From: an uncultured Methylophaga sp.
Lineage (GTDB): Bacteria > Pseudomonadota > Gammaproteobacteria > Nitrosococcales > Methylophagaceae
Assembly (NCBI RefSeq): GCF_947259025.1
Contig: NZ_CAMYKO010000002.1
Location: 186,001 to 250,000 of the forward strand
Length of the DNA: 64,000 nt
Reading direction: 5' to 3'
The number at the start of each line of letters is the position of its first letter. The stretch's first letter is position 1. A program made the translations under genes and the position numbers. A model generated the notes under the pieces. The model did no database searches. It was not told where the DNA came from and saw nothing but the letters and a program-made list of their open reading frames with translations. This document shows, one piece after another, positions 45,438 to 48,028 of the stretch.

Positions 45438-46520
<1,083 letters not shown>

Positions 46521-46540: not shown

Positions 46541-46579
46541 AAGACCTTTGCGAGTGCCGGGCATTTGCAAGGGTCTTTT
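46541..46579 (+). terminator. Attenuator-like hairpin between mreB and mreC
   Basis: AAGACCTTTGC (46541-46551) pairs with GCAAGGGTCTT (46567-46577), one G-U pair, around a 15-nt loop, followed by TT and then TTAGTTTT-type sequence. It lies 20 nt past the mreB stop and 18 nt before the proposed mreC start, so it could reduce read-through from mreB. Confidence 0.65.
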
Positions 46580-46596
46580 AGTTTTGGAACAGCGTT

Positions 46597-47562
46597 ATTA
46601 AACCGTTATTTACTCACAATCCATCGATCAATACCCGCATGCTGCTGGCTGTGCTGGCCTCACTGGCGGTGTTTTTCCTGGATTCACGACTGGATTATTT
46701 CAAGCCGGTGCGTTCGGTCCTGTCCACCGTGGTCTATCCGCTGCAGGCGACGGCCTCAATGCCCAGTAATTTTGTTGACTGGGTGGGGGAGTTTTTCCAG
46801 GATCGCGAGCAGTTGCGTGAGCAAATTACTGTACTCAATGCCAGTAATAAACTGCAAAGCCTCAGGCTGCAGAAAATGCAGGCGCTGGAACGCGAAAACA
46901 TGCGGCTGCGTGAACTGCTGGGCTCGTCTTTCCGACTGCAGGAGCGAGTACAGGTGGCAGAATTGCTGACCGTCGATCTGGATCCCTTCTCACAACAGGT
47001 CATTATCGATAAAGGTGAAAACTTTGGTGTCTATGTCGGCCAGCCCGTTCTGGATGCTCATGGCGTGATGGGACAGGTCACCGAAACCTCTTATCTGTCG
47101 AGCCGGGTGGTGTTACTCACTGATCCCAGTCACAGCATTCCGGTTCAGATTAATCGCAATGGCCTGCGAGCAGTAGTGACCGGCCGTGGTCTGGGAGAAA
47201 CCTTGAAGATGGACTTCCTGCCGCATAATGCCGATGTGCGCGCCGGTGATCAGCTGGTGACCTCCGGATTGGGCGGGCGTTTTCCGGTTGGCTATCCGGT
47301 AGGCAAAGTGGTGTCAGTGGAATTTCCCCAGGGTAAAGCCTTTGCCGATATCAAGGTGGCGCCGGCTGCGAATCTCTCAACCAGTCGCGAACTGATGCTG
47401 GTTTTGCCGGGTGAAAAAATCAGAACTGAACCCACGGTAGACACGCCGGCGGCATCCGAAGCCACCGCTACGGTCAGCCCCGCTGCTTCTGAAGCCAGCT
47501 CAACCTTAAGTGATAGCAACGGCGAGGACAATGCCGGGGAGCCTGCCGATGGCAATGAGTGA
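46597..47562 (+). CDS. mreC: Rod shape-determining protein MreC, probable ATT start
   Basis: MreC is a bitopic inner-membrane protein that links MreB to MreD and PBP2. Its coiled coil (about 65-115) is followed by a beta-rich periplasmic domain with VIDKGENFGVYVGQPV and VTSGLGGRFPVGYPVG. The first in-frame ATG (46639) starts in the membrane helix. The in-frame codons before it, starting at ATT 46597, read IKPLFTHNPSINTR, matching the conserved MreC N-terminus (MKPIFSRGPS in E. coli). GGAA lies 7 nt before that ATT. No ATG, GTG, TTG or CTG start lies between the TAG at 46579 and 46639. I therefore propose ATT initiation (321 aa); the fallback is ATG 46639 (307 aa). Confidence 0.93.
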   Translation: MKPLFTHNPSINTRMLLAVLASLAVFFLDSRLDYFKPVRSVLSTVVYPLQATASMPSNFVDWVGEFFQDREQLREQITVLNASNKLQSLRLQKMQALERENMRLRELLGSSFRLQERVQVAELLTVDLDPFSQQVIIDKGENFGVYVGQPVLDAHGVMGQVTETSYLSSRVVLLTDPSHSIPVQINRNGLRAVVTGRGLGETLKMDFLPHNADVRAGDQLVTSGLGGRFPVGYPVGKVVSVEFPQGKAFADIKVAPAANLSTSRELMLVLPGEKIRTEPTVDTPAASEATATVSPAASEASSTLSDSNGEDNAGEPADGNE

Positions 47563-48028
47563 TATCCCCCGCAACGGCTTTATGATTGTACTGACCATCA
47601 TTGCAGCGATGTTGCTGATGATGGTGCCCTTGCCGGAAGCAGCACGTTTTTTCCGGCCTGAATGGGTGGTGTTAACGCTGATGTACTGGGCGATGGCCTT
47701 GCCACACCGGGTAAGTATTGGCGTCGGCTGGCTCAGCGGTCTGATTATGGATGTGATGATGGGCGGCACATTGGGCGTGATGGCTTTCAGTTATGCCTTC
47801 GCCGTATATCTGATCGCACGTTTCCACCTGCAATTAAGGCAATATCCCTTATGGCAGCAGGCATTGACCATTTTTTCGGTGGTGTTGCTGGTGCATTTTG
47901 TCTCGGTGATGGCAGGCAGACCAGAGATGAGCTGGGTTGTGTGGATGCCAGTGGTGACAAGTACCCTGATGTGGCCGGTGATTTACCCGCTGTTGCGTAA
48001 AATCAGACGTACGTTCCAGGTCAGCTGA
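47549..48028 (+). CDS. mreD: Rod shape-determining protein MreD
   Basis: MreD is a small polytopic membrane protein of the elongasome. The product from ATG 47549 is 159 residues with five or six helices. It includes the conserved RPEWVVLTLMYWAMALPHRVS segment (split around residue 45) and GLIMDVMMGGTLGVMAF. GGGGAG lies 7 nt upstream of 47549, and the start overlaps the mreC end by 14 nt. ATG 47555 is a minor alternative. mrdA begins 8 nt after its stop. Confidence 0.94.
   Translation: MAMSDIPRNGFMIVLTIIAAMLLMMVPLPEAARFFRPEWVVLTLMYWAMALPHRVSIGVGWLSGLIMDVMMGGTLGVMAFSYAFAVYLIARFHLQLRQYPLWQQALTIFSVVLLVHFVSVMAGRPEMSWVVWMPVVTSTLMWPVIYPLLRKIRRTFQVS

Follow-up and report, generated by a model that had tools for sequence, protein, structure and literature searches.

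A conserved AUU or AUC codon as the probable start of mreC in a Methylophaga genome and its family, with AUH counterparts across Gammaproteobacteria

To our knowledge few bacterial genes start at AUU, AUC or AUA, and one of these, pcnB of E. coli, has an AUU start and a product needed in small amounts, both of which would also be true of the mreC gene described here. Another parallel is infC, whose AUU or AUC start is known through IF3 autocontrol (in the accessible parts of PMC5472188 and PMC5559785). Like infC, this mreC carries an AUH codon (by which we mean ATT, ATC or ATA at the start codon position) and has no usable canonical start; unlike infC its product is a cell-shape protein, so that no self-regulating loop is possible, and while infC is controlled by IF3, such control of mreC is putative. 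In Streptomyces, sigR starts at GTC and is repressed by IF3 (PMC5472188, from the part available). It resembles mreC in that a non-canonical start would set the amount of one protein against that of a partner and in being misannotated in genomes, but its start is GTC and not AUH, it belongs to another phylum, and its start was shown experimentally whereas ours is read from sequence. E. coli mreC itself agrees with our gene in the position of the first codon, in its MKPIF N-terminus and in the mreB-mreC-mreD order, yet it starts at ATG, has a weak Shine-Dalgarno match (-3.0) and sits in a tree group whose starts are all canonical. AUH starts as such are already known (infC, pcnB), and what is notable about that of mreC is its breadth, the gene concerned and the paired Shine-Dalgarno pattern. 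We came across no description of a non-canonical start for mreC in the literature searched (titles and abstract openings, with most subscription journals outside), and the main text of PMC5559785 does not mention mreC, although such a start may be in print elsewhere.

The window, by which we mean the whole stretch of 64,000 nucleotides analysed here from an uncultured Methylophaga sp., holds mreC flanked by mreB and mreD, with the following features.

45474..46520, + strand: mreB, the gene upstream of mreC
46541..46585, + strand: terminator-like hairpin with T-rich tail in the mreB-mreC gap (stem 46541-46577, 17 pairs)
46579..46581, + strand: in-frame TAG closing the mreC frame upstream
46586..46589, + strand: GGAA, a weak Shine-Dalgarno ending 7 nt upstream of the ATT (duplex -3.3 kcal/mol)
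46597..46599, + strand: ATT start codon of mreC, ATT or ATC in 54/54 family genomes and gapless with E. coli Met1
46597..47562, + strand: mreC, 321 codons counted from the ATT, TGA stop at 47560, TIGR00219 and PF04085 over cut-offs
46600..46638, + strand: N-terminal segment KPLFTHNPSINTR, lost with a start at ATG 46639, conserved codon by codon across 53 distinct sequences of the family
46639..46641, + strand: first in-frame ATG of mreC, rejected as main start (ATG in only 26/53 distinct family sequences)
47555..48028, + strand: mreD, whose own ATG overlaps the mreC stop

A profile search identifies the product as MreC (TIGR00219, 210.8 bits, E=2e-62, cut-off 92.75; PF04085, 148.3 bits, E=2e-43, cut-off 28). 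After the TAG the frame reads TTT TGG AAC AGC GTT ATT (46597) AAA CCG TTA TTT ACT CAC AAT and continues through CCA TCG ATC AAT ACC CGC to the ATG at 46639, giving the residues F W N S V I K P L F T H N P S I N T R upstream of that ATG. Between the TAG at 46579 and the ATG the window sequence has no ATG, GTG, TTG or CTG in this frame, as the sequence-only reading had said. That reading had placed the start at the ATT and taken the upstream codons for the conserved N-terminus of MreC, and both proposals are supported by an alignment without gaps (query 1-279 with chain 1-279) to E. coli MreC (7eft), which sets the ATT under Met1, and by the family genomes considered below. The GGAA that it named as a ribosome-binding site is where it was placed, but is weaker than was implied. 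At the other end of the gene the mreD ATG and the mreC stop overlap by 8 nt (47555-47562), which suggests translational coupling of the two genes. On the comparative evidence set out below we consider it highly probable that mreC is translated from ATT 46597, and that this is a conserved start of the infC kind which would lower, and probably gate through IF3, the synthesis of MreC. The position of the start is strongly supported by the alignments; its low output, its IF3 sensitivity and its purpose as a brake we infer.

Our family set comprised 57 genomes, 55 of them with an MreC match, of which 54 including the window's own were read (G079 was left out). The start codon was ATT in 35 and ATC in 19 of the 54, and in 52 of them there was no canonical ATG, GTG or TTG within 10 codons upstream or 4 codons downstream of the AUH. 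AUA did not occur at the start in this family (0/54), as against 17 of 107 AUH starts outside it; the latter share is like that of AUA among internal Ile codons (129/853), and a general bias is not claimed. One family genome listed with 6% contamination (G072) has a second mreC-like match of 48% identity (contig 64, 4144-4968), which is perhaps foreign and was left out of the start-codon counts.

The non-AUG start proposed for this window also turned out to have been framed too narrowly, as AUH is the commonest mreC start state in a class-wide sample. An MreC match was present in 336 of 369 genomes drawn evenly from the class, all with a completeness of 80% or more. Outside the family we read 189 genomes from 156 families, taken in part from the best matches listed for this draw and in part from two further searches of 60 entries each, mostly one per family and picked before their starts were seen, and scored AUH at the aligned position or one codon before it; rows L033-L036 (named contigs), the repeat loci L137, L188, L189, L190 and L193 from genomes counted already, L237 (no profile match) and L183 (start beyond the sequence stretch) were left out of the counts. 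AUH without a canonical start near it was found in 91 of these genomes, AUH with a canonical codon near in 16 (at least three of which, L219, L222 and L231, look like plain ATG starts), a canonical start near in 54, and neither in 28, of which 23 carry a canonical codon farther upstream, at 5-10 codons, and two (L071 and L249) may have an AUH start. By family, 72 of the 156 showed only AUH without a canonical start near, 5 were mixed but included this state (77/156 in all), 44 were canonical only, 23 other and 12 ambiguous. The AUH codons outside the family were ATT 46, ATC 44 and ATA 17 (n=107), with 94 exactly at the aligned position and 13 one codon earlier. Among the 91 loci without a canonical start near, 7 have a stop one codon ahead of the AUH, and examples of nearby stops are TAA ACC ATT AAA CCT (L058), TGA GTT ATC AAT CCT (L065) and TAG ACC ATT AAA CTG (L086). 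Some lineages have ATG at the exact aligned codon, E. coli K-12 among them, and for the start of mreC E. coli is an ATG exception. When mreB was read in the same way, by a control that chooses an ATG near the aligned start where one exists, ATG occupied precisely the aligned codon in 72 of 84 loci and lay near it in 80 of 84, so the reading method is not the source of the AUH starts. A tree built on MreB with 56 rows (28 AUH, 28 canonical) requires 12 changes of the start state, as against 19.0 in shuffles, and well supported branches force only 2 changes; the E. coli group on this tree has 8 rows, all canonical. A sample of the phylum gave 73 matching genomes from other classes, whose alignments all begin at model position 6 or beyond, and the N-terminal motif is therefore not traceable in other classes.

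The Shine-Dalgarno sequences of mreC follow its start state outside the family. Taking one locus per family and the duplex energy with the anti-Shine-Dalgarno, the mean was -7.59 for AUH loci (n=77) and -3.50 for canonical loci (n=45; Mann-Whitney p=5e-11), with background stretches averaging -2.3 to -2.9; lineages with canonical starts are mostly without a Shine-Dalgarno at mreC. The difference from AUH persisted for loci with ATG at exactly the aligned codon (n=17, p=8e-7), and as families are related to each other all of these p-values overstate independence. In control genomes with longer flanks, AUH and canonical genomes did not differ in the Shine-Dalgarno of mreB (20 vs 21, p=0.92) or mreD (16 vs 18, p=0.73), while for mreC these genomes did show a difference (p=7e-5 and 0.003, respectively). 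The split thus belongs to mreC itself rather than to the genomes that carry it. The pairing of AUH with a strong Shine-Dalgarno does not hold in the window's own family, where GGA, GGG or AGG lies at -16 to -5 in 51/54 loci and the duplex is weak (mean -3.77, with 9% of loci at -6 or lower). What this family does have is a hairpin with a T-run within 90 nt upstream of mreC in 49/54 loci. A link between hairpin and AUH was not seen outside the family (16/91 AUH loci vs 19/54 canonical), and the window region overall is not unusually structured (z -1.1). We infer from these elements that three means together may hold mreC low in this family, namely transcript termination downstream of mreB, poor Shine-Dalgarno pairing and a weak start codon.

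Pseudomonadaceae offer a case in which the start codon bears on a published structure, and 396 of 398 genomes of this family have a match to 6zlv, a solved chain of P. aeruginosa MreC. Among the best 30 loci, which are those most like 6zlv and not an even draw, codon 1 is ATC in 28, ATA in 1 and ATT in 1, and an in-frame canonical codon lies upstream in 2, at 9 and 21 codons away. One locus, L283, is 100% identical to the 6zlv chain over 176 residues, and its start reads TAG GAG CGG ATC ATC AAA CCG CTA TTC with no canonical codon between. Counted from the AUH codon of L283 the relevant stretch is 113-274, with P130/F131, R191 and E204/R206, whereas in the published numbering, as given in the portion of PMC8137920 available to us, 6ZM0 covers 97-258 and the residues are Pro114/Phe115, Arg175 and Glu188/Arg190, which is 16 lower throughout. 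With this offset residue 1 of the published numbering is codon 17, and codon 17 is GTG in 22 of the best 30 loci, L283 among them. The numbering in that portion of the source is consistent with a P. aeruginosa MreC start set too late, at the GTG of codon 17. From codon 17 L283 has 328 residues, as against a construct reaching 330 (same portion of PMC8137920), so a small tail difference between strains must be assumed. If our reading is right, the structural numbering of P. aeruginosa MreC would lack 16 residues, and more generally any annotation that allows only ATG, GTG or TTG is likely to miss the MreC N-terminus.

How might such a start work? The initiator fMet-tRNA can start on AUU, AUC or AUA through a third-base mismatch, and we propose that it would read the AUU here in this way, giving a protein that begins Met-Lys-Pro-Leu-Phe. 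The AUH start is probably ancient in mreC and has been kept by many Gammaproteobacteria (in the GTDB sense), where it would act as a brake on initiation. In many other families a strong Shine-Dalgarno would be its partner, and in the window's family the brake would consist of the AUH, the weak Shine-Dalgarno and the terminator-like hairpin after mreB. MreC synthesis would probably be sensitive to IF3, as that of infC is, because initiation complexes on codons other than AUG are rejected by IF3: with reconstituted components, the full-length yield from AUU read by CAU falls as IF3 rises (PMC10158994, in the part we could consult), and IF3 represses the non-AUG starts of infC and sigR (PMC5472188, likewise in part). 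The window's own genome has an infC start that reads TAG AAC ATC GCT AAA (L057 1489-1503; G000 contig 2, about 328740). This infC probably begins at ATC, and the usual IF3 circuit is therefore probably present. Through the brake the amount of MreC would stay small in comparison with MreB. According to the available sections of PMC7793260, MreC has been proposed to switch on PBP2, and E. coli cells with an excess of MreC are shorter and wider, with MreD suppressing the length effect, so that braking mreC would be understandable. In E. coli, however, where the start is ATG, there is about twice as much MreC as MreD or PBP2-RodA (same sections of PMC7793260), and MreC is therefore not scarce everywhere relative to these partners. 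It is conceivable, and we put it forward tentatively as the less probable outcome, that in Gammaproteobacteria with AUH the state of IF3 and translation sets MreC and so couples wall elongation and shape to translation, a link that E. coli would not have. A morphogene seems to use AUH starts throughout a good part of a large class, E. coli being an exception.

A different view of the same start is that the ATT is used but has no regulatory meaning, having drifted there and been tolerated since little MreC is needed. We regard this as a possible but somewhat unlikely account. It fits with the general absence of a Shine-Dalgarno in canonical lineages, which would give two routes to low output, and with a start state that can change, as the 12 changes on the MreB tree indicate, even though its well supported branches force so few. 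Against it, AUH is a single substitution from AUG, yet none of the 54 family genomes and none of the best 30 Pseudomonadaceae loci has made it, which suggests selection against AUG and, with it, selection for weak initiation.

Both of these accounts place the start at the ATT, and the codons around it speak to whether translation could begin elsewhere. Across 53 distinct sequences of the window's family, conservation of the protein type begins at the AUH codon: I1 is kept in 100%, K2 in 98%, L4 and F5 in 100%, S10 in 98% and R14 in 100%, with synonymous variation at codons 4, 5, 10 and 14. The codon directly before the AUH takes 15 forms, and the second codon before it is a stop in 66%. The suggestion that an IKPLF segment would be conserved at the protein level is borne out in these sequences, and the relatives' upstream codons contain no conserved ATG or GTG in its place. 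Translation from ATG 46639 with the KPLF codons untranslated would have the first canonical in-frame codon in its favor; codon 15, however, at which this ATG lies, is ATG in 26/53 distinct sequences, TTG in 13/53 and TTA, CTT, CTG or CTA in 14/53, so that an ATG start is not common even to the family. With 27/53 sequences lacking Met there, and with upstream codons that show protein-type conservation and match the E. coli N-terminus, we share the earlier view that Met 46639 is not the start and hold the contrary to be very improbable; on the family codon conservation we reject this candidate as the main start. Least probable of all is entry in another frame with a frameshift, or one codon earlier, for although a TTG-started ORF of 134 aa overlaps the region (46565-46969), many family members have an in-frame stop at the first or second codon ahead of the AUH, no evident shift site stood out at the locus, and the variable preceding codon argues against a start one codon before the ATT.

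A few loci elsewhere in the class differ in ways of their own. Two genomes from the window's order (family f2), G038 and G039, have TAT at the mreC start position (L042 and L043), with TGA directly before it in L043 and GTG at codon 7 as the next canonical codon; in the genus of G038, 2 of 4 genomes (G037 and G040) gave no MreC profile match though they are listed as 99-100% complete. From the TAT on, L042 and L043 share 91% identity over 120 nt, and over the 90 nt before it 29% (ungapped). Finally, the mreC of L071 (G389) has a duplicated motif, ATA AAG CCG CTA AAG CCA CTC TTT, and may start at the AUA three codons before the aligned position.
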